DNA of 49,206 bases, from assembly GCA_026647565.1 (NCBI GenBank), contig JAPKGU010000006.1, forward strand, positions 1-49,206, read 5' to 3'. Below the pieces are notes generated by a model that worked only from the letters and a program-made list of their open reading frames with translations, did not search any database and was not told where the DNA came from. Below, in pieces: positions 1 to 9,216 of the stretch (position 1 is its first letter; the number at the start of each line of letters is the position of its first letter). Source of the DNA: Phycisphaerales bacterium. GTDB taxonomy: Bacteria > Planctomycetota > Phycisphaerae > Phycisphaerales > UBA1924. The translations under genes were made by a program, and so were the position numbers.

Positions 1-324
1 GTGCTCGGCGACGGCGTAGGGGGAATAAGCCGGCACGCGGGCGACGGTGAGCCCCAATCGCTCGGCCTCGGCGAGATCGACGTGGTTGAAGCCCGCCGAG
101 CGGAGCGCCAGCAACCGCGTGCCGCCGGCGTGGAGAGCGCGGAGGACCGGGGCTGAGGCGTCGTCGCCGACAAAGAGCGAGACGGCGGGCATGCCCCGGG
201 CGAGGTCGGCCGCCGCTGCCGAGAGCTTCGCGTCGAGGTAGACCAGTTCGTGGGCGGCGTGCGCGTTCGCGGCGTCGAGAAAGGGCTTCTCGTAGGGTTT
301 GCTGGAGTAGACGGCGATGCGCAT
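1..324 (-). CDS. ldhA: D-lactate dehydrogenase (2-hydroxyacid dehydrogenase), N-terminal part, truncated by window edge
   Basis: The first 108 codons are present and the frame runs off the left edge, so the NAD-binding Rossmann part and catalytic Arg/Glu/His lie outside. What is visible is the N-terminal substrate-domain half: MRIAVYSSKPYEKPF, then LRSAGFNHVDL and VPAYSPYAVAEH, which match the fermentative D-lactate dehydrogenase branch of the D-2-hydroxyacid dehydrogenase family (pyruvate + NADH to D-lactate). GGAGG lies 7 nt before the ATG at 324. The gene is the last of a leftward group behind the universal stress and macro-domain genes, which suits a fermentative or low-oxygen role. Family assignment is firm; D-lactate as the substrate is inference. 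Confidence 0.8.
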   Translation of the reverse strand, partial: MRIAVYSSKPYEKPFLDAANAHAAHELVYLDAKLSAAAADLARGMPAVSLFVGDDASAPVLRALHAGGTRLLALRSAGFNHVDLAEAERLGLTVARVPAYSPYAVAEH

Positions 325-390: not shown

Positions 391-492
391 GCAGGGAGTC
401 TACCTGCTTTCCCGCGCCTTCACCCCATCTCGTCCTGCGTCGGCCACGAGATGAACGCAGGGAGTCTACCTGCTTTCCCGCGCCTTCACCCC
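391..492. repeat. Pair of identical 36-bp direct repeats separated by 30 bp
   Basis: Positions 391-426 and 457-492 are identical over 36 bp, starting gcagggagtctacctg and ending cgccttcacccc. The right copy covers the last eight codons and stop of the macro-domain gene, so the left copy is a duplicate of that gene's 3' end. The 30-bp spacer contains a 7-bp inverted repeat (427-433 with 446-452). The repeat itself carries gcagg/cctgc arms that could form a weak stem. The repeat-spacer lengths resemble one CRISPR unit, but there are only two copies, one is coding, and no cas gene is present. Confidence 0.85.
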
Positions 493-969
493 CTTCTGGT
501 ACGTCGTGTAGACGTAGACCGGGATCTTCAGCGAGTCCAAGTGCTGACGAACCAGCGGAGCGACGGCATCCCACGACATCCCGCCCACACCCGTGCAGAG
601 TTTGGGGATCGCGAGGCTTTGCACGTTCTCGCGTTCCGCCCACTCGCGGAGTTCCTTCAAGGCATGGTTGACGTTTTTCGCGTTCGCCGGCCCGGGCTTG
701 GCACCGTGCTCGTACCCGCCCTCCTGCGTGAGCAGGGCGACGAGACGCACGGGCTTGCCCGGCGCATCGCTCACGCCGCCCCAGTCCCACAGCTCGCCCG
801 ACTTGGGATGGTCGGTCTGGCAATAGTGGCGGAAGTCCTTGTACATCGCGGGCCACTTCTCTCGCAGCGCGAGCGCGAGGCCGCTGTGGAACGGGTCGTT
901 CGGTGCTACGCCGTGGGCGATGGCATCGGCGGAGGAGAGGAGAATGTCGCCAGTCACTTCGTGAATCAT
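466..969 (-). CDS. Macro-domain protein (ADP-ribose/Appr-1''-p binding or hydrolysing)
   Basis: A 167-residue single macro domain. The N-terminus IHEVTGDILLSSADAIAHGV is the usual strand-loop start, though the canonical N-A-A-N loop is replaced by S-A-D-A-I-A-H. The later loop LAIPKLCTGVGGMSW is the phosphate-binding glycine loop. The form with an early H-G-V and a C-terminal KL.TG.GG is typical of small ADP-ribose-binding proteins that remove ADP-ribose from proteins or nucleic acids, or process ADP-ribose phosphate. It follows the stress protein gene by 45 bp on the same strand and probably shares its transcript. An AAGGA lies about 10 nt before the ATG. Family is clear; hydrolase activity is not shown by the sequence. 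Confidence 0.85.
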   Translation of the reverse strand: MIHEVTGDILLSSADAIAHGVAPNDPFHSGLALALREKWPAMYKDFRHYCQTDHPKSGELWDWGGVSDAPGKPVRLVALLTQEGGYEHGAKPGPANAKNVNHALKELREWAERENVQSLAIPKLCTGVGGMSWDAVAPLVRQHLDSLKIPVYVYTTYQKGVKARESR

Positions 970-1014: not shown

Positions 1015-1977
1015 CTAGGCCTCCCCCGCCGCGAGCGGGTGACGGAAGCCCTCGGGCTTGACGGCGAGCACGGAGCATGGCGACTCGTCGAGCGCCTTCT
1101 CCGCGGTGCTGCCCAAGAGGATGTCGCGCAAGTTGGTCCGGCCGCGGGTTCCCAGCGCAATGAGGTCGGCGGAGACACTCTTCGCGTACTCGACGATTCC
1201 GGAGCGGTGCCCGCCGTAGTCGTTGCAGACGGGGCGTATCCGCAGTCCTTTGTGTGCCTCGGCCACCGGACCGACGAGATCGGCAAGGCGTCGTTCCAAG
1301 GCGTCGCGGTACTGTTTCTGGAGATGGGCAGGGGCCATGGGCTGGGGAGCTCGATAGTGCAGTCGGTGCCACGGAGCGGCAAAGACGTGCAGCACGTGCA
1401 GTTCTGCCCCGTCCTGGGCGGCAATCATCGCGGCCCGAGCCAGAGCCCTCGCCGAGGTCTCCGAGAAGTCCACCGCGGCCACCACACACTTGAACGGCCC
1501 GGCCTGCGTGTCGCGCACGAGCAGCACGTCGGTCATGCTCTTGCGGACGCACGCGGTGGCCACCGTGCCGAAGCCCACATCCGGGCTTTGGTCACCGAAG
1601 GCCCCCATGACGAGGAGGTCGGCCTTGTGCTCGCGGGTGTGGTTCAGGATGCCAACGAGGCGATTGTTCATGGAGACGTGAATCGGCAGCGCCGAGGCAC
1701 CTGCGATCCTGACGGCGAACTCGCCCCACGCCGCCTTGGCGTCCTGCACCAGATGGTCGCGAGTCGCCTGCTGGTAGGCCGACAGTGCCGACTCCAGTTC
1801 GATCACGACCGTGGTGTCGATGACGTGGACGACGCGCACCGGCGCGTTCGACCACGCCGCGATCCGAATCGCCTGGCCGATGGCGACCGCCGAGCACGGC
1901 GTGAAGTCGGTGCCGACGACCACGGACGTATACGGGCGTGCGAGCGCGGCGGCGGGGACTGGGTGGGCTGCGGTCAT
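1015..1977 (-). CDS. Universal stress protein with two UspA domains
   Basis: 320 residues containing two consecutive Usp folds, roughly residues 15-155 and 160-310. The second domain has the ATP-binding signature G-T-R-G-R-(x9)-G-S-T (GTRGRTNLRDILLGST). The first has the altered version MGAFGDQSPDVGFGT, so nucleotide binding may differ between halves. Tandem Usp proteins are cytoplasmic stress/energy sensors often induced by anoxia. AAGGAG lies 6 nt before the ATG. A palindrome (2030-2043) lies 53 bp upstream of the start, in the same place as upstream of the CBS gene at 6696. It is probably the first gene of the operon continuing to the macro and D-lactate dehydrogenase genes. Confidence 0.93.
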   Translation of the reverse strand: MTAAHPVPAAALARPYTSVVVGTDFTPCSAVAIGQAIRIAAWSNAPVRVVHVIDTTVVIELESALSAYQQATRDHLVQDAKAAWGEFAVRIAGASALPIHVSMNNRLVGILNHTREHKADLLVMGAFGDQSPDVGFGTVATACVRKSMTDVLLVRDTQAGPFKCVVAAVDFSETSARALARAAMIAAQDGAELHVLHVFAAPWHRLHYRAPQPMAPAHLQKQYRDALERRLADLVGPVAEAHKGLRIRPVCNDYGGHRSGIVEYAKSVSADLIALGTRGRTNLRDILLGSTAEKALDESPCSVLAVKPEGFRHPLAAGEA

Positions 1978-2029
1978 GGGCGGCTCCTTCGTGCCAGATT
2001 CATAGCGAACGCCGACGTGCGGCGTGGTT

Positions 2030-2043
2030 GCGGAAACTTCCGC
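2030..2043. promoter_or_regulatory. Palindrome GCGGAA-AC-TTCCGC, candidate operator upstream of the universal stress gene
   Basis: A perfect 6-2-6 inverted repeat, 53 bp from the stress-protein ATG. A TATGAA -10-like hexamer lies 25 bp downstream of it on the minus strand, which puts the palindrome centre near -43 of a predicted start. The same palindrome, with the same AGAT-N flank, recurs at 6749-6762 at the same distance from another gene. The 7-2-7 geometry is that of NarL/FixJ-family binding sites. The binding protein is not known; the regulator encoded at 8449-9216 is the obvious candidate (inference). Confidence 0.6.
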
Positions 2044-2067
2044 GATCTGGTGTGATCGGCAGGGCCT

Positions 2068-4569
2068 TCAGGCCTTGGGACGCGTCGTCAGCATCCGCGC
2101 CACGCCCGGAAGGGCATCAGGGTTCAGCGACATCGAGTCGATGCCGATATCGGCGAGCCACGCGGCGAACTCGGGGTAGTTGCTCGGCGCTTCGCCGCAG
2201 ATGCCGACCTTGCGGCCGCTCGCGTGGGCTTTCTGAACGACCATCTCGATCATGGCCTTGACGCCCGGGTCTCGCTCGTCGAAGACGTGCGCGAGTTGCT
2301 CCGAATCGCGGTCCACGCCGAGGGTGAGCTGCGTCAGGTCATTGGAGCCGATCGAGAAGCCGTCGAAGAGCTCGCTGAACTGCGTCGCCAGCACGACGTT
2401 GTTGGGGATCTCACACATCACGTAGACCTGCATCCCATTCTTGCCGCGCACCAGCCCGTGCCTGGCCATCTCGGCCAAGACCGCGCGGCCCTCGGTGAGC
2501 GTCCTGCAGAACGGGATCATGACGATGACGTTGGTCAGGCCCATTTCCTCTCGTACACGCCGGATCGCGGCGCACTCGAGCGCAAACCCCTCGCGGTAGC
2601 GTTCGTCGTAGTAGCGAGACGCCCCGCGCCAACCGATCATCGGGTTCTCCTCCTTGGGCTCGAAGGCCTCTCCCCCCAGCAGACCGGCGTACTCGTTGGT
2701 CTTAAAGTCGCTGAAGCGAACGATGACCGGACGCTGGAAGAAGGCCGCCCCGATCTGCGCGACGCCCTCGGCCAGCCGCGACACGAAGAACTCCCTCAGA
2801 TCGGCCCCGTACCCGGCGGCAGCGGCCCTGCGGCGGATCTCCGCGCGCACTTTAGGGTCGGCCACCCGTTCGGGATGGACCAGGGCCATCGGGTGCACGC
2901 CGATCCAGTTTGTGACGAGGAACTCGATCCGCATCAAACCCACGCCCGCGACCGCGCCGCCGCCCGTTGCCGGCAGGCAGCCCAGCCGGAAGGCGTTGCC
3001 CGGATCGGCGAGGTTGAGCATGAGCGGCACCGGCGACACGGGCAGGCTCGCCGGGTCGAGCAGTTCGTGCTCGAAGGGGACCGCGCCGTCGTAGACGGTA
3101 CCAACATCTCCCTGGGCGCACGACACTGTCACGGTCTGCCCGTCCTTTATCGCCTCGGTACCGCTGCCCGTGCCGACGACGCACGGCAGGCCCATCTCGC
3201 GCGACACGATCGCGGCGTGGCAGGTCCGCCCGCCACGGTCGGTCACCACCGCCGCGGCCTTGCGGAGCACCGGCTCCCAATCCGGATCGGTCATCTCGGC
3301 GACCAGCACCTCGCCGGGCTTGAAGTGGTGCAGGTCGTCGGTGGATCGGACGACGCGGGCGATGCCTGTGCCCACACGGGCTCCGACGCTCTTGCCGGTC
3401 ACGAGCGAGCGGCCCTTGCCCTTGAGCCGGAACGTCTCAAGTCTGGTGCCCGGCGAGCCCCCTCCGGCCCGCTGCGAGTGCACCGTTTCCGGCCGAGCCT
3501 GCACGATGAACAAGTCGCCGGTCCGCCCGTCCTTCGCCCACTCCAGGTCCATCGGCGAGTCGGTGCCGCGCTTCGCGGAGTAGTGGTCCTCGACGACCAT
3601 CGCCCAGCGGGCCAGCGTCAGAGCCTCGTCGTCGCTGAGCACGAAGCGGCGTCGATCCGCGGCGGGCACGGGCATCTCCTTCACGCTCCGCGCCGCGACC
3701 AGCCCCGCGCCGGTGTAGACGAGCTTTACGGCCTTGTCGCCCAGGTCCCTGCGGATCACGGACCGCTTGCCCGCCTTGGCGGTCGCCTTGTGCACCCAGA
3801 ACTCGTCGGGGTTGACGCGCCCCTGCACGACCGTCTCGCCCAGCCCCCATGCCCCGTCGATCACCACCACGCCGCGGTGCCCGCTCTCGGTGTCGAGGGT
3901 GAACATGGTCCCCGCGCACGCAAGATCGCTGCGGACCATCCGCTGCACGCCCACCGACAGGGCCACAGCCCGATGCGAGAAGCCGTTGTGGACGCGGTAG
4001 ACGATCGCGCGATCGGTGAACAGCGACGCCATGCACGCGCGCACCGCCGCATCCAGCGCTTCCTCACCGCGGATGTTGAGGTACGTCTCGTGCTGCCCTG
4101 CAAACGACGCCGTCGGCAAGTCCTCCGCCGTCGCCGAGGACCGGCAAGCCACGTCGAGGCACGGCACGCCTTGCTCGCACGCCTCGGCATCCCGCGAAAG
4201 CACGCGGTACGCCGCCATGATCGCGTCGCGCACGGGCGTCGGCAGCGGAGCACCGGCGATGCGGTCTCGCACCCGTTGTGCGGTCTCCGCGAGCGCCCGC
4301 GTGTCGCCGATATCAAGCCCCTCCACCTGCTGGTACACCCACTCCGCAATCCCCGCCTCGCGCAGGTGCAGCCGGAACGCCTCCGCCGTCACAGCGAACC
4401 CGTCGGGCACGCGTACACCGAGCGAGCTGAGTTGCCCGATCATCTCGCCCAGCGAGGCGTTCTTGCCCCCCACGGTCCCCACGTCAGAGCTGGCGATCTC
4501 ACGGAACGGGATCACGTACGCCGTCGTGGAGGAAACCGTGCTGGCTCGACCGTGCTCAATCGTTGTCAT
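2068..4569 (-). CDS. ppsA: Phosphoenolpyruvate synthase
   Basis: 833 residues, the usual size. It converts pyruvate + ATP + water to PEP + AMP + phosphate. The N-terminal ATP-grasp domain starts with GGKNASLGEMI. The mobile phosphohistidine domain contains TDRGGRTCHAAIVSRE with His451 as the phosphorylated residue. The C-terminal TIM barrel ends with VGICGEAPSNYPEF. I chose the ATG at 4569 because GGAAGG stands 6 nt before it; an in-frame start eight codons upstream lacks this. It follows the alcohol dehydrogenase gene by 45 bp and is probably co-transcribed. In such clusters it redirects pyruvate during anaerobic or stationary survival (inference). Confidence 0.96.
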   Translation of the reverse strand: MTTIEHGRASTVSSTTAYVIPFREIASSDVGTVGGKNASLGEMIGQLSSLGVRVPDGFAVTAEAFRLHLREAGIAEWVYQQVEGLDIGDTRALAETAQRVRDRIAGAPLPTPVRDAIMAAYRVLSRDAEACEQGVPCLDVACRSSATAEDLPTASFAGQHETYLNIRGEEALDAAVRACMASLFTDRAIVYRVHNGFSHRAVALSVGVQRMVRSDLACAGTMFTLDTESGHRGVVVIDGAWGLGETVVQGRVNPDEFWVHKATAKAGKRSVIRRDLGDKAVKLVYTGAGLVAARSVKEMPVPAADRRRFVLSDDEALTLARWAMVVEDHYSAKRGTDSPMDLEWAKDGRTGDLFIVQARPETVHSQRAGGGSPGTRLETFRLKGKGRSLVTGKSVGARVGTGIARVVRSTDDLHHFKPGEVLVAEMTDPDWEPVLRKAAAVVTDRGGRTCHAAIVSREMGLPCVVGTGSGTEAIKDGQTVTVSCAQGDVGTVYDGAVPFEHELLDPASLPVSPVPLMLNLADPGNAFRLGCLPATGGGAVAGVGLMRIEFLVTNWIGVHPMALVHPERVADPKVRAEIRRRAAAAGYGADLREFFVSRLAEGVAQIGAAFFQRPVIVRFSDFKTNEYAGLLGGEAFEPKEENPMIGWRGASRYYDERYREGFALECAAIRRVREEMGLTNVIVMIPFCRTLTEGRAVLAEMARHGLVRGKNGMQVYVMCEIPNNVVLATQFSELFDGFSIGSNDLTQLTLGVDRDSEQLAHVFDERDPGVKAMIEMVVQKAHASGRKVGICGEAPSNYPEFAAWLADIGIDSMSLNPDALPGVARMLTTRPKA

Positions 4570-4614
4570 GGTGCGTCCTTCCTTCGTCTCCATTCGGCGT
4601 GCTCTCGATAGCCG

Positions 4615-5691
4615 TTACCCGAAGGTGATCAGCGGCTTGACCATCCCGTCTTCCTTGGTTTGCATCATGCGGAAGGCCCGCTCGATGTCCTTGAAGGCGA
4701 AGCGGTGCGTGGTCATTGCCAGCGGATCGACGCGGCCGGACTCGATCAGCCGCAGCAGGCGGCCCATGCGCTCACTCCCGCCCGGACACAGTGCGGTGCG
4801 GATGGTCTTGTCGCTCATCCCCACGCCCCAGTCCAGACGTGGGATCGGCACCGTGTCGCCGTCGCCGTGGTAACCAACATTGGAGATCGTGCCGCCGGGT
4901 CGCGTCGCGCTTACGCACGCGGCAAAGGTCCGCGGCGAACCGAGTGCCTCGATCGCGCTGTCCACGCCCTTGCCTCCGGTGAGCCTCTTGATCGCCTCGA
5001 CTGGGTCTTCTTTCGAGTAATCCACCACGACATCGCAGCCGTACTTCTTCGCGAGCGCGATGCGGTTCGGCATTGACTCGACGCCGATCACCAGCCCCGC
5101 GCCGCGCAGGCGCGCGCCGACGGTCGCCATCAATCCCACCGGGCCTTGCGCGAAGATCGCAACTGAGCCACCGATGGGAATGTTCGCAAACTCGGCTCCG
5201 ATGAAGCCCGTCGAGAGCATGTCGCAGCAGTACGCGGCTTGCTCATCCGTGAGACCGTCGGGGATGGGCGCGAGGTTCGCCAGTGCGTTGTTGACGTGGA
5301 AGTACTCGGCCATGTTGCCGTCTTTCACGTTGGCGAACTTCCAGCCGCCCAGCATTCCGCCGCACTGGCTGGAGTACCCGCGCTGGCAGTTGTCACAGGC
5401 ATAGCACGGCGTGATGGCGTTGACCGCAACGCGCTGGCCGACCTTGAAACGGTCCGCCTCGGCCACCGCGGCGCCCAGCTCGTGGATCACGCCCACCGCT
5501 TCGTGCCCGTGCGTGAGGTCGTGCCTGTCGCCGATCGCACCCGCGACGGTGTGCGTATCGCTGGTGCAGATCAGCGCGGCGGTGGTGCGGACGATCGCGT
5601 CAAAGGGTCCAGGCCGGGGGATGGGCTTCTCCATCACGGCGACCTTGCCGATCCCTCGCATCACGAGGCACCTCATGGTCATCTCGAGCAT
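4615..5691 (-). CDS. Zn-dependent alcohol dehydrogenase, isopropanol dehydrogenase type
   Basis: 358 residues, medium-chain dehydrogenase fold. Predicted catalytic zinc ligands are Cys42, His63-Glu64 and Asp157, the Cys/His/Asp set of the clostridial NADP secondary-alcohol dehydrogenases. Segments such as NMAEYFHVNNA, RLRGAGLVIGV, GGTISNVGYHG and ALCPGG also match that group. Unlike those enzymes it keeps a structural zinc lobe: Cys96, Cys99, Cys102 and Cys110 in the C-x2-C-x2-C-x7-C spacing. The cofactor loop after GPVGLMATVGARL reads GVESMPNR, so NADP versus NAD cannot be settled. GGAG lies 7 nt before the ATG at 5691. Part of the CBS-DUF2934-ADH-ppsA run; probably reoxidises cofactor under low oxygen. 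Confidence 0.9.
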   Translation of the reverse strand: MLEMTMRCLVMRGIGKVAVMEKPIPRPGPFDAIVRTTAALICTSDTHTVAGAIGDRHDLTHGHEAVGVIHELGAAVAEADRFKVGQRVAVNAITPCYACDNCQRGYSSQCGGMLGGWKFANVKDGNMAEYFHVNNALANLAPIPDGLTDEQAAYCCDMLSTGFIGAEFANIPIGGSVAIFAQGPVGLMATVGARLRGAGLVIGVESMPNRIALAKKYGCDVVVDYSKEDPVEAIKRLTGGKGVDSAIEALGSPRTFAACVSATRPGGTISNVGYHGDGDTVPIPRLDWGVGMSDKTIRTALCPGGSERMGRLLRLIESGRVDPLAMTTHRFAFKDIERAFRMMQTKEDGMVKPLITFG

Positions 5692-5796
5692 GCACGAGCT
5701 CCAAAGGCAACATGAAGATCAATCCGCGGCGCGACGTGTTCGGTCGCGCCGCGAGCGCAGCGGGAACAGAAGTGGCACCGCCCGCGAGGCCATATG

Positions 5797-6147
5797 TCAC
5801 AACCCGCCGCGGGCGGGCATTGCAGCCTGATGGTGGCTTTCCGAGCGGGTCTTGATCTCAAGCACCGCCGGGTCGGAGATGGTGTCTTCACTCGACGACC
5901 CGGGTGCAGTCCGGCCATTCAGTTCACGCTCGGCCTGCGCCCAGTCGGATTCGGCGTCACCTGGTGCGCCGTTGCGGGTCTGGTAGATCTCATAGGCCCG
6001 CAGGCGGACGCGGTCGGGTGTGATCTCGATGTGGGTCCCTTCGCCGATCTTGCGGCCTGCGCCTACGGGGATAGGCGTCGGAGTCTTCGGACGGCGCTGG
6101 ATGTCCTTGCTCAGCGTGTCTCTCACGATGGTCTTCGGGGTGCCCAT
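5797..6147 (-). CDS. DUF2934 protein
   Basis: 116 residues, soluble and polar. The recognisable part is RVRLRAYEIYQTRNGAPGD followed by ESDWAQAEREL (about residues 45-78), the short DUF2934 signature found in many soil and planctomycete genomes, often beside stress genes. Its biochemical role is unknown. The N-terminal 40 residues are basic and probably disordered, and the tail is Ser/Glu rich. ATG at 6147 has AGGAG 6 nt upstream; an earlier in-frame ATG at 6201 has no such site. It lies between the CBS and alcohol dehydrogenase genes in one leftward group. Confidence 0.8.
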   Translation of the reverse strand: MGTPKTIVRDTLSKDIQRRPKTPTPIPVGAGRKIGEGTHIEITPDRVRLRAYEIYQTRNGAPGDAESDWAQAERELNGRTAPGSSSEDTISDPAVLEIKTRSESHHQAAMPARGGL

Positions 6148-6210
6148 GCGCTGCTCCTGTGATTCGGTCTCCTGTTGACTCAATGTGTCCACGATGGACA
6201 TTCCACCACG

Positions 6211-6696
6211 TCAGCCTCCGGGCCGCGGAAACTTCTTCAGGACGTCGAGCGCCGTGATCACGCCGATGGGGTACATGTCGTTGTCGACCACGATCACCCG
6301 GTGGATACGTCGGTCCGCCATGAGTGCCGCGACCTCATGAATAGGAGTGCTCGGCTCCGCCGTCAGTGCGCTCTCGGTCATGAAGTCCTGTACGCACACG
6401 AGCGGCTCGGGGATCGGAGACTCGCCGCCGTCATCGTCCTTGCTTCCTTGCTCGCACACCACCTCGAAGAGATAGGCCGGTGGGATGTCTCGAGTTCCTT
6501 CCGAGCACCGGCGGATCAAGTCTGTCTTGCTGACCACGCCGATCACCCTTCCGCTGTGATCGACAACCGGGCAGCCCGAGATGTCGTTCTCCTCGAACAG
6601 CCTCGCCAGTTGGCGGATCGTGGTGGACGGTTCGGCGCACACAGGGTCCGGGGTCATGATGGTGGCTGCGGTGTCGTTTGCGAGGTGCCTGCTCAT
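6211..6696 (-). CDS. Two-CBS-domain protein (Bateman module)
   Basis: 161 residues comprising almost nothing but two CBS domains: about 12-70 (IMTPDPVCAEPSTTIRQLA, then ISGCPVVDHSGRVIGVVSKTDL) and about 98-158 (FMTESALTAEPSTPIHEVA, then HRVIVVDNDMYPIGVITALDVL). Stand-alone CBS pairs bind adenosine nucleotides and modulate partner proteins. The ATG at 6696 has GGGAGG 6 nt upstream; longer in-frame starts would run into the divergent kinase promoter. It is the first gene of the leftward CBS-DUF2934-alcohol dehydrogenase-ppsA run. A palindrome at 6749-6762, 53 bp before the start, duplicates the one before the stress-protein gene. Confidence 0.93.
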   Translation of the reverse strand: MSRHLANDTAATIMTPDPVCAEPSTTIRQLARLFEENDISGCPVVDHSGRVIGVVSKTDLIRRCSEGTRDIPPAYLFEVVCEQGSKDDDGGESPIPEPLVCVQDFMTESALTAEPSTPIHEVAALMADRRIHRVIVVDNDMYPIGVITALDVLKKFPRPGG

Positions 6697-6748
6697 AGCG
6701 AGCCTCCCGGAACGCTGGATGATGGCGACCCCGGCGGAGCTGATCCAC

Positions 6749-6762
6749 GCGGAATTTTCCGC
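6749..6762. promoter_or_regulatory. Palindrome GCGGAA-TT-TTCCGC, second copy of candidate operator
   Basis: A perfect 6-2-6 inverted repeat in the 142-bp gap between the divergent CBS gene (start 6696) and histidine kinase gene (start 6839). It is 53 bp from the CBS ATG, the same as the copy at 2030-2043, and has the same AGAT-N flank on the minus strand. A CATCAT -10-like hexamer lies 24 bp downstream toward the CBS gene. It could also control the kinase-regulator pair, 76 bp away on the other side (inference). Confidence 0.6.
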
Positions 6763-6838
6763 CATCTCGCGTCCAAGGCCCGCGATGAGGCCCGTTTCAG
6801 GGGCATACCGATAGCCCGATGCGATACGATTGCTCTCG

Positions 6839-8440
6839 ATGCCGCAACCCGGTCCGCCTCCGCCCGCCGATAGCGATTCGCACAGTCGTGCAGTCCTCGC
6901 TGCGGCCCTCGACCCGATCATCACCATCGACGCATCGGGCGTGATCCAGTCCGCCAGCGACTCGGTTCTGCGCGTCTTCGGGTGGTCGCCCGGCGAACTC
7001 ATCGGGCGCAACGTCAGCGTGCTGATGACCGAGCCGCATCAGTCGGCCCATGACGCCTACCTCGCACGCTACGCCGCGACAGGTCAGACCCGCATCCTCA
7101 ACAACCCGCGTCGGCTCGAGGCCGTCCGCCGGGACGGCACGCGGTTCCCGATCGAGCTCTCCGTCTCCCAGGCGGACATCCCAACGATGGCGGGACCGCT
7201 CTTTGTAGGCATTATCCGCGACCTCACTCGTCCTCGCCGATCCAGGGGCCCGCGCGGGGCGGGCGTCGCCGAGTCACAGGACTTGCAGGGCCTCGTCACC
7301 GAGCAGACGAGGGCACTTGAACAGGCCCACCTTCGCCTGAGGCTGGCCGACCAGATGGCCTCGATCGGCACACTTGCCGCCGGGCTGGGTCACGACATGA
7401 ACAACGTCCTGCTGCCGGTGAGAGCGCAGATCAATGTTCTGCGCGAGGCGAGCCGCAACCTCTCTGAGTCCCGTGCTGACGCTCATTCTCGCGCGTGCAC
7501 ATGCAGCGGTCAGTCCGGTGCTCCGGGGATCGATATCCGCCCCGCGATCGACGCCATCGCCTCAAGCGTCGCTTACCTGCAGCAGCTCGCGGATGGGCTC
7601 CACGCGCTCGCGCAGAATCCCGACAACACCTACCCGGACGGGCCACCGACCGACCTGCGAGACTGGTGGGACCGCACCGGGATCGTGATCGCCAAGGGAG
7701 TCCCGAAGCACGTCAAGCTGACCGCGGCGATCCCGCCCCACCTGCCACCCGTGAGTGTCGCACCGCACCGGCTGACACAGGCCGTGCTGAATCTGGTGAT
7801 CAACGCGGGCGAGGCCATCCCCAGCCTCGATCAAGACCCCTCCCGCAAGCGCCGGCAGGGTCGTGTGAAGATCACGGCCCGATCCGAGGGCGATGAGTCG
7901 GGAGCCCGGTGGATCGCTCTGTCCGTCTCCGACAACGGCACCGGGATGACCGCCGAGGTCAAGCGTCGGGCGTTCGAGCTGTTCTTTACGACCAAGTCCC
8001 GCGGCAGGGGAACCGGGCTTGGGCTTCCGCTGGTCCACAAGGTGGCCGCACGCGTGGGCGGGCGAGTCGTGATCGACACCGTGCTCGGCAAGGGCACCAC
8101 CGTCACGATGTGGCTGCCCGAGGCCCACGTGCCCTCGGATGCTCAGCCCCGCCATCGCGCGGTCATCGCGGTTTCGAACGCTCGCCTGGCCTCGCTGGTC
8201 CGACACGTGCTGGAGGCCGCGGGTGTGCAGATCGTCGACGCTTCTCGCGCTCTCGACGGAGCGGCACTCTGGGTGGTCGACCAGCCGGTCTCCGCAAAGC
8301 GCGTTGGCGGCGAGGGGACGTCCGTCCGCCGCCGCAACGGCCCGAAGCACCTTACGATTACCCCGACCGACGACTTCAAGACGATCCGCGAGCTGATCGC
8401 CATGGCACTCGCATCCTTGCCCGAGTCCGGGGATAAGTAG
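6839..8440 (+). CDS. FixL-like PAS sensor histidine kinase
   Basis: 533 residues, no membrane segment, so a cytoplasmic sensor. The PAS domain (about 15-130) is FixL-like: FGWSPGELIGRNVSVLM, then HDAYLARY. His71 and Arg91 are 20 residues apart, as are the haem ligand and Gbeta Arg of FixL. A short coiled linker leads to the dimerisation helix with phosphoacceptor His185 (GLGHDMNNVL). The ATPase domain has Asn322, SVSDNGTGM and GRGTGLGLPL. The last about 100 residues resemble a receiver-like fold but show no clear acceptor Asp. The ATG at 6839 has a poor ribosome site, and a TTG three codons earlier is possible. The response regulator gene follows after 8 bp. Confidence 0.92.
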   Translation: MPQPGPPPPADSDSHSRAVLAAALDPIITIDASGVIQSASDSVLRVFGWSPGELIGRNVSVLMTEPHQSAHDAYLARYAATGQTRILNNPRRLEAVRRDGTRFPIELSVSQADIPTMAGPLFVGIIRDLTRPRRSRGPRGAGVAESQDLQGLVTEQTRALEQAHLRLRLADQMASIGTLAAGLGHDMNNVLLPVRAQINVLREASRNLSESRADAHSRACTCSGQSGAPGIDIRPAIDAIASSVAYLQQLADGLHALAQNPDNTYPDGPPTDLRDWWDRTGIVIAKGVPKHVKLTAAIPPHLPPVSVAPHRLTQAVLNLVINAGEAIPSLDQDPSRKRRQGRVKITARSEGDESGARWIALSVSDNGTGMTAEVKRRAFELFFTTKSRGRGTGLGLPLVHKVAARVGGRVVIDTVLGKGTTVTMWLPEAHVPSDAQPRHRAVIAVSNARLASLVRHVLEAAGVQIVDASRALDGAALWVVDQPVSAKRVGGEGTSVRRRNGPKHLTITPTDDFKTIRELIAMALASLPESGDK

Positions 8441-8448
8441 CACGAATC

Positions 8449-9216
8449 ATGCCCTCAAAGCGTCGCTCAACCACGAAGTCGGAAGCGCCTGCGTCGCCGC
8501 CCGACGACGGAGCAGGTATCCGCGTGCTGTGTGTGGATGACCACGCAGTGATCATCGAGGGGCTCAAGGCCCAGTTTTCTCTTGACCCCTCCATACGGTG
8601 CATCGGGTCGTTGTCGTCGGCCGAGCGTCTGGTCGAGGAGGTCGGCCGACTGAAGCCGGACCTCGTGCTGCTCGACATTGAGATGCCCGGACCTGACGCC
8701 TTCGAGACCGCCGACCGGCTCCGTCACATGCATCCTCGCACCCGTGTTGTCATCCTGAGCGCCCACATCCGCGACGGGTACATCGACGCGGCGTTCAAGT
8801 GCGGGGCCTGGGGCTACTTCGCCAAGTCCGATGAACTCTCCGCCATCATCTCCGGCATCCGCGAAGTGGCGTGTGGCCGAGACGGGACATTCGTCCTCGG
8901 ACCGAAGGTGAAGAAGCGTTGCCGACCCGTTGTTCCACATGCCACCGGGGTCCGACCTTCGCCTCCATTACGCCGAGTCCCCGCGGGTCCGAGCGATGCA
9001 AGGCCCGTCACGCCGCTGAGCACCCTTTCGATGCGAGAGGTCGAGGTGCTGCGCCTGATCGGCAAGGGCCTGACGCGCAACCAGATCGCCTCAGAACTCT
9101 CGCGCGAGGTCAAGACCATCGATGGGCATCAGAAGCGCATCATGCGCAAGCTGAACGTCGGATCACGCTCCGACCTCATGCGGCTGGCCATCCGCGAGGG
9201 GTTGGCCGAGGCGTAG
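8449..9216 (+). CDS. NarL/FixJ-family response regulator
   Basis: 255 residues. Receiver domain about 24-145: acidic pair Asp30-Asp31, phosphoacceptor Asp76 in LVLLDIEMPG, then ILSAH and the conserved Lys of YFAKSDE. A Pro/Arg-rich linker (about 155-180) leads to a C-terminal LuxR-type helix-turn-helix, LSMREVEVLRLIGKGLTRNQ, then VKTIDGHQKRIMRKL. It should be phosphorylated by the preceding kinase and bind inverted-repeat DNA as a dimer. It is the natural candidate to bind the palindromes at 2030 and 6749 (inference). The linker is longer than in ordinary NarL proteins. Confidence 0.93.
   Translation: MPSKRRSTTKSEAPASPPDDGAGIRVLCVDDHAVIIEGLKAQFSLDPSIRCIGSLSSAERLVEEVGRLKPDLVLLDIEMPGPDAFETADRLRHMHPRTRVVILSAHIRDGYIDAAFKCGAWGYFAKSDELSAIISGIREVACGRDGTFVLGPKVKKRCRPVVPHATGVRPSPPLRRVPAGPSDARPVTPLSTLSMREVEVLRLIGKGLTRNQIASELSREVKTIDGHQKRIMRKLNVGSRSDLMRLAIREGLAEA

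Follow-up and report, generated by a model that had tools for sequence, protein, structure and literature searches.

Two palindromes in a stretch of 49,206 nucleotides from a Phycisphaerales bacterium (contig JAPKGU010000006.1, positions 1 to 49,206, hereafter the window) are probably operators through which the adjoining two-component system, a FixL-like kinase and a NarL-type response regulator, activates genes when oxygen is low. One palindrome precedes a gene for a universal stress protein (USP), the other a run of genes that begins with one for a CBS-domain protein. An earlier reading of the sequence alone, which I call the original prediction, had picked out the pair and proposed a small regulon of two gene runs under a regulator of the NarL/FixJ family. 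Computation now adds that the palindrome is the local form of a wider motif of 22 base pairs (bp), about GATNRGGGAANNTTYCSCRTGG, which is conserved in relatives, clusters at orthologues of the regulator gene, has a -10 element at a fixed distance downstream and stands in front of identifiable target genes.

The palindrome GCGGAA-N2-TTCCGC (GCGGAANNTTCCGC) is exact at 2030-2043 and 6749-6762. The genome scan proposed by the original prediction returned these two places, before the USP and CBS genes, and no other in the whole genome of 3,943,683 bases, while base composition leads one to expect 0.0054 copies per window and 0.44 per genome. As predicted, 53 bp separate each core from a minus-strand ATG (1977 and 6696), the gene-strand flanks are alike (AGAT-C and AGAT-G), and no other copy precedes a gene in the window: the six further places with at most two mismatches all carry two, and the window count of 8 against 4.8 expected includes such two-mismatch matches. 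The USP and CBS identities of the genes are likewise supported, by PF00582 and PF00571. The 7-2-7 geometry ascribed to the sites has to be given up; the symmetric core is 6-2-6 (the pair after it reads C/A before USP and G/G before CBS), and the full 22-bp motif has asymmetric flanks.

The exact string is not the signature of the family and was rejected as such, since a tally over 101 genomes gave 57 places for it and 59 for the reversed pattern. At E<=3e-60, 20 of 100 relatives have an orthologue of the regulator, and close but asymmetric variants of the palindrome turn up repeatedly in 20 stretches from 19 of these genomes. A matrix iterated over these stretches and the window gave 28 matches, against a mean of 2.2 in mononucleotide shuffles and none in reversed sequence; 21 of the 25 matches outside the window were kept as the training alignment (A1), four being dropped by judgement (L054 13292, L057 13568, L070 609 and L070 15831). 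When named genomes were searched with the regulator alignment, the best 80 of 140 loci were obtained, mostly from Phycisphaerales or other Planctomycetota by title. Dropping the 18 that share a 60-mer with the training set left an independent test set of 62 loci (961,285 bp). In these unseen loci the 22-bp matrix found 77 matches of at least 15 bits (1 in reversed and 3.7 in shuffled sequence) and 35 of at least 20 bits (0 and 0.7). Eight of the 80 loci are near-duplicates, six of them among the 62; without these, 70 matches remain in 56 loci, 30 of which have a match, against 1 in reversed sequence, and 66 remain when the closest relatives of the window are dropped. The 75 non-overlapping matches, spread over 34 of the 62 loci, give the 22-bp profile. 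Among 47 control loci, originally fetched for palindrome-like sites, two matches reached 15 bits, one being the USP site of the window itself. Random spread or lack of conservation had been named beforehand as signs that the original prediction was wrong; the exact string does occur at chance level in the wider relatives, and the 22-bp motif does not.

Conservation was also seen at the orthologous promoters themselves. In the three loci L173, L174 and L175 (regulator identity 93, 90 and 77%), gene order, both operators and the distance from operator to ATG are kept while the spacers have diverged, and the USP operator of L175 is altered to GCGGACTTTTCCGC. A fourth relative, L176, discussed below, has lost the CBS site but has others nearby, before other genes that include one for a USP. 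Orthologues of the alcohol dehydrogenase (ADH) gene of the CBS run have upstream sites of at least 20 bits in four of seven relatives (G001 at 372 bp, G032 at 66, G067 at 111 and G079 at 111); G060 has one of 14.2 bits, and upstream of the orthologues in G022 and G047 no site was found. For CBS orthologues the figure is three of 11 relatives (G032 at 416 bp, G033 at 423, both with an HMA-like gene in between, and G012 at 130). In G067 the upstream stretch resembles a site interrupted by an insertion (7.9 bits), and nothing above 13 bits lies upstream of the remaining CBS orthologues of the 11 relatives.

The kinase, whose likeness to FixL had escaped the original prediction, points to the signal. 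Its seven best PDB matches are all FixL (top 1dp6, E 1.9e-25), Pfam finds a PAS-type sensor and an ATPase domain only, and in the PDB alignment the FixL histidine that ligates haem has its counterpart in the window kinase. The best NCBIfam match is also FixL (NF041777), at 138 bits against a cut-off of 850. Because the kinase is FixL-like, oxygen is the likely signal. That operator and regulator are as proposed and the signal is something else, such as nitric oxide (NO), redox state or another ligand, is unlikely. Haem-PAS proteins can bind NO and carbon monoxide, and it weighs against oxygen that the histidine, kept in 11 of 14 aligned kinases including that of the window, is lost in the other three (three of the 14 were aligned as PAS pieces only), two of which, in L056 and L061, stand beside operators of at least 20 bits. 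The signal may thus differ from oxygen where the kinase has no haem histidine, and oxygen is possibly not the input in every member. Against a different signal in general stand the FixL matches and a set of genes suited to low oxygen, with a CcoN-FixO cbb3 fusion, ADH, phosphoenolpyruvate synthase (PpsA) and a lactate-type dehydrogenase.

The three FixL-like kinases without the histidine (L056, L059 and L061, in G021, G010 and G002) have leucine in its place, and L059 has no operator of at least 15 bits. In a sample of 392 genomes of the phylum, seven contain the kinase at E<=1e-60, and six of those (own genome included) belong to the same order; the system is therefore not phylum-wide at that cut-off. 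L173-L175 share with the window the sequence GCGATACGAT (6821-6830) just upstream of the kinase start, which may serve as the -10 element of the kinase promoter itself.

The regulator at 8449 belongs to the predicted family: it combines a receiver (PF00072, 1.8e-19) with a LuxR-type helix-turn-helix (PF00196, 5.5e-15), and its best PDB match is NarL (7.2e-23), with DevR matched at 5.3e-16 and FixJ at 1.9e-9. A model R1, built without the window sites, gave 11 matches at E<=0.05 outside the training stretches, and eight of them fall in regulator-bearing genomes, which number 20 among the 100 relatives (binomial, 2e-4; this P value and those that follow ignore the relatedness of the loci, which weighs against them). 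By reading, two of the eight precede ADH, one CcoN and one a frame with a Tat-like start (G086); one lies before a gyrA-like frame (G006) and is probably due to chance, and those in G046, G071 and G032 have no clear gene identity. The regulator co-occurs with CBS orthologues in eight of 11 relatives and with ADH in five of seven.

Two classes of regulator can be told apart by the residue that follows the conserved histidine of the presumed recognition helix, glutamine (HQ) or arginine (HR). The pattern ACRGGG-N3-TTTCCC has 12 sites in five of 17 HR-class loci and none in 55 HQ-class loci (Fisher, 4e-4), a P value that is optimistic because the pattern was defined after examples had been seen and the loci are related by descent. 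One metagenome-assembled genome (MAG; SHNF01, Bin8) has two paralogous loci, of which L189 carries GATCAGGGAAGTTTCCGC and L230, with the paralogous regulator, carries AACAGGGTGCTTTCCCTGT sites. With the same caveat on the pattern, this suggests that the motif variant follows the class of regulator. The regulator at 8449 is the presumed binder of the operators; clustering at its orthologues, co-occurrence and the change of motif with class are what argues for it. A real motif bound by a different regulator, with sites that only happen to lie around the kinase-regulator pair, is decidedly improbable. Clustering is guilt by association, and three of the 11 independent R1 matches lie in genomes without a close regulator orthologue; but the matches are concentrated at loci chosen solely for this regulator, and the variant tracks its class even within one MAG (L189 versus L230). 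In L173, L194, L215, L229 and L248, a planctomycete-type regulator occurs in records titled Leptolyngbya, Limnohabitans, Chloroflexi, Vicinamibacteraceae and Actinomycetes, respectively, probably because of erroneous titles or mixed bins.

Promoter layout was read from the 75 unseen sites, at positions that lie outside the matrix and were unused in training. Downstream of the motif there is a -10 element at a fixed distance: of the 75, position 44 is A in 54, position 45 is T in 43 and position 48 is T in 54. The -10-like hexamers of the original prediction are present in the window, although they had to be re-specified as CATCAT (6724-6719) and TATGAA (2004-1999). Taking position 44 as -11, the fixed distance puts the centre of the motif near -43.5, the usual location of class II activators, which would make this an activator position. 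Repression by the bound regulator, with release under low oxygen, has a small probability. The right flank of the motif, RTGG, sits at the would-be -35 location and no separate -35 hexamer was seen in the profile of these sites, which speaks for a repressor; yet promoters that depend on an activator typically have a good -10 element at fixed spacing and lack a -35 consensus, and characterised DevR- and FixJ-like regulators are mostly activators. Finally, a chance palindrome pair, or a repeat or terminator element, can be dismissed: the exact string is indeed at control level in the 101 genomes, but two copies against 0.44 expected, both 53 bp from a start, sites conserved in syntenic relatives and a 22-bp motif far above controls make this reading next to impossible.

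Several further results weigh against control of these genes by the adjoining system. The seeds of the matrix that first found the 21 training sites included both window sites. With model R1 an intragenic place came first in the genome, the CBS site ranked second and was weak (13.6 bits, E 0.33), and the USP site was not listed in that scan; a model R2 that includes the window sites scores them at 24.5 and 16.9 bits. In 28 of the 62 unseen loci there is no match of at least 15 bits. In L176, whose regulator is 71% identical, the 600 bp next to CBS contain no site, the best score there being 0.3 bits, and among regulator-bearing genomes no site above 9 bits was found for CBS of G067, G070, G079, G083 and G086 or for ADH of G047. 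The HR pattern is missing from 12 of the 17 HR-class loci, and the original matrix separates the classes only suggestively (17 of 44 HQ loci versus 1 of 12 HR loci, P=0.08).

The regulon in the genome itself appears small. A pattern search allowing three mismatches gave 20 rows against 11 in the control, and a large own-genome regulon was not found, in an assembly that is 89% complete in 265 contigs and may be missing members. With at most two mismatches only the two window sites appeared, on the gene strand; of the 18 rows with three, one is the other strand of the USP site and only one is promoter-like. This is GATAGCGGATACTTCCGCGATG at C259:4626-4647 (11.5 bits). Its core and the ATG of a further USP gene are 49 bp apart, that USP gene is followed by one for a lactate permease, and the site is probably a third member. 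The two-run regulon of the original prediction finds support, judged from sequence, and this likely third site had escaped it. Further R2 matches were treated as chance: those at C211 and C112 lie inside frames with a coding-like GC pattern, that at C41 at the very start of such a frame, and that at C2 in a long frame of unusual pattern.

Pfam tests covered ten proteins encoded downstream of unseen sites and four in a second test; the remaining targets were named by reading their sequences. The choice of downstream gene is heuristic, and ten of the 75 sites have no downstream open reading frame that passes the filter. Pfam identified USP, CBS, the S30EA hibernation factor, BON proteins, a CcoN-FixO cbb3 fusion, an HMA-like protein and a multihaem cytochrome c, two families among the ten being without a match; by reading, DUF2934 genes also follow, and in L177 and L179 the kinase gene itself lies 350-390 bp behind a site. 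The training loci add a domain-tested Dps-like ferritin and, by reading, AhpD-like, HPF-like and ADH genes. Judged by these predicted functions, the targets form a low-oxygen and dormancy set. Two small families recur behind the operator, each with one member tested and without Pfam match. One is IRPxxDPQREIDLTHRLVAAIAEELWRLYGGNxxLNWLEAExHLQRIVG (L184:5875-6279, also L176, L185, L202, L214, L215, L183, L177, L178 and L052); the other is DHDHDLIHFLSxRLDTLWRCDQCIANA (L183:10828-11079, L178 at site 18685 and L052 at site 14273).

The most likely scheme for the system is the following, in which I infer binding by the regulator, activation rather than repression, and the oxygen signal. When oxygen drops, O2 would leave the PAS haem of the kinase, which would autophosphorylate and pass the phosphate to the NarL-family regulator. 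The phosphorylated dimer would bind the 22-bp motif, reaching the -35 region from its centre at about -43.5, and recruit RNA polymerase as a class II activator. Switched on would be the CBS-DUF2934-ADH-ppsA run, the USP-macro-D-lactate dehydrogenase run and probably an additional USP gene outside the window; relatives have the motif in front of genes for a cbb3 oxidase, a hibernation factor, Dps, BON proteins and others.

Table 1. Operators, promoter elements and genes of the proposed regulon in the window
Feature	Position	Strand	Basis or remark
Operator 1	2026..2047	-	22-bp motif GATCGCGGAAGTTTCCGCAACC, core 2030-2043, before USP gene; 15.0 bits, matrix from non-window sites
Operator 2	6745..6766	-	GATGGCGGAAAATTCCGCGTGG, core 6749-6762, before CBS-DUF2934-ADH-ppsA run; 20.7 bits, non-window matrix
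-10 hexamer TATGAA, USP promoter	1999..2004	-	one base further downstream than most members; conserved in L173 and L174
-10 hexamer CATCAT, CBS promoter	6719..6724	-	matches -10 profile position; conserved in L173
FixL-like haem-PAS histidine kinase, divergent from CBS	6839..8440	+	Pfam, PDB, NCBIfam, alignment
NarL-family response regulator, presumed binder of both operators	8449..9216	+	Pfam, PDB, motif association
Double-CBS-domain protein	6211..6696	-	PF00571, 1.4e-31
DUF2934 protein	5797..6201	-	PF11154; start uncertain, similarity in L173 and L174 from residue 19
Zinc-type ADH	4615..5691	-	domain search; operators upstream of orthologues in 4/7 gene-bearing relatives
PpsA	2068..4593	-	TIGR01418, 1050.8 bits, cut-off 739.75
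Tandem USP	1015..1977	-	PF00582, 4.6e-46, two stretches
Macro-domain protein, downstream of USP	466..969	-	PF01661, 3.9e-5, just above cut-off
D-isomer 2-hydroxyacid (lactate-type) dehydrogenase, N-terminal part	1..324	-	PF00389; gene cut by contig end

On the minus strand the order is CBS, DUF2934, ADH, PpsA, operator 1, USP, macro domain and the start of the D-2-hydroxyacid dehydrogenase (Table 1). A direct repeat of 36 bp, GCAGGGAGTCTACCTGCTTTCCCGCGCCTTCACCCC, was seen by eye at 391-426 and 457-492; its second copy overlaps the 3' end of the macro-domain gene and its first lies downstream of that gene.

Among the literature matches listed, from a search with most subscription papers and bioRxiv outside its scope, no planctomycete low-oxygen regulon of this kind was found. 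One item listed, a sigma-54 survey, mentions Phycisphaera once. My broader proposal is tentative: that Phycisphaerales and relatives share an undescribed low-oxygen or dormancy regulon in which a FixL-type haem-PAS kinase is coupled directly to a NarL-type regulator, that paralogous systems, even in one genome, are kept separate by an HQ to HR change in the recognition helix matched by a change of operator half-site (GATNRGGGAA to AACAGGG), and that the two small conserved families without known domain are part of it. Nearly all that is known here of these planctomycetes comes from MAGs, and an operator, a -10 element, a likely binder and a target list would allow their response to low oxygen to be predicted from sequence. 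The two classes of regulator and two operator variants also make the change in DNA recognition directly testable.

Among known systems, FixL-FixJ of rhizobia shares the PAS sensor with its aligned haem histidine, the best NCBIfam match and, among the targets in relatives, a cbb3 oxidase. It differs in that the kinase falls far short of the FixL cut-off and its partner is closer to NarL than to FixJ; moreover, FixJ acts largely through FixK, whereas here one motif stands directly before the targets. The DosRS (DevRS) system of Mycobacterium is set apart by its sensor: the DevS kinase carries a GAF domain, while the planctomycete kinase is of the FixL PAS type without GAF, and here cbb3 oxidase is among the targets. 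The likeness lies in the genes controlled. For Streptomyces OsdR, which the authors who described it hold to be orthologous to DevR/DosR, predicted targets include USPs, a zinc-type alcohol dehydrogenase and pyruvate phosphate dikinase (PMC5069765). In the Streptomyces and Mycobacterium systems, USP, ADH and phosphoenolpyruvate-forming dikinase genes lie near the regulator's own gene, as USP, ADH and PpsA do here, and the operator is likewise a GGG..CCC palindrome; the predicted OsdR operator, AGGGCCGATCGGCCCT, nevertheless differs from the GGGGAA-N2-TTCCGC-like profile found here (PMC5069765). The lxa locus of Burkholderia is a low-oxygen cluster with six USPs that its authors compare with the DosR regulon, but there a CRP-type regulator (FixK/Anr-like), and not a NarL-type one, is discussed as the likely controller (PMC6127331). 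The curated FixL score was not reached, operator and sensor differ from those of DosR/OsdR, and the present system is assigned neither to DosR/OsdR nor to FixL. By analogy, it would resemble DosR/OsdR in its mode of working, with a FixL-like sensor, and suggests that another phylum has put the actinobacterial dormancy set of USP, ADH and phosphoenolpyruvate synthesis under the control of an oxygen sensor of different build.

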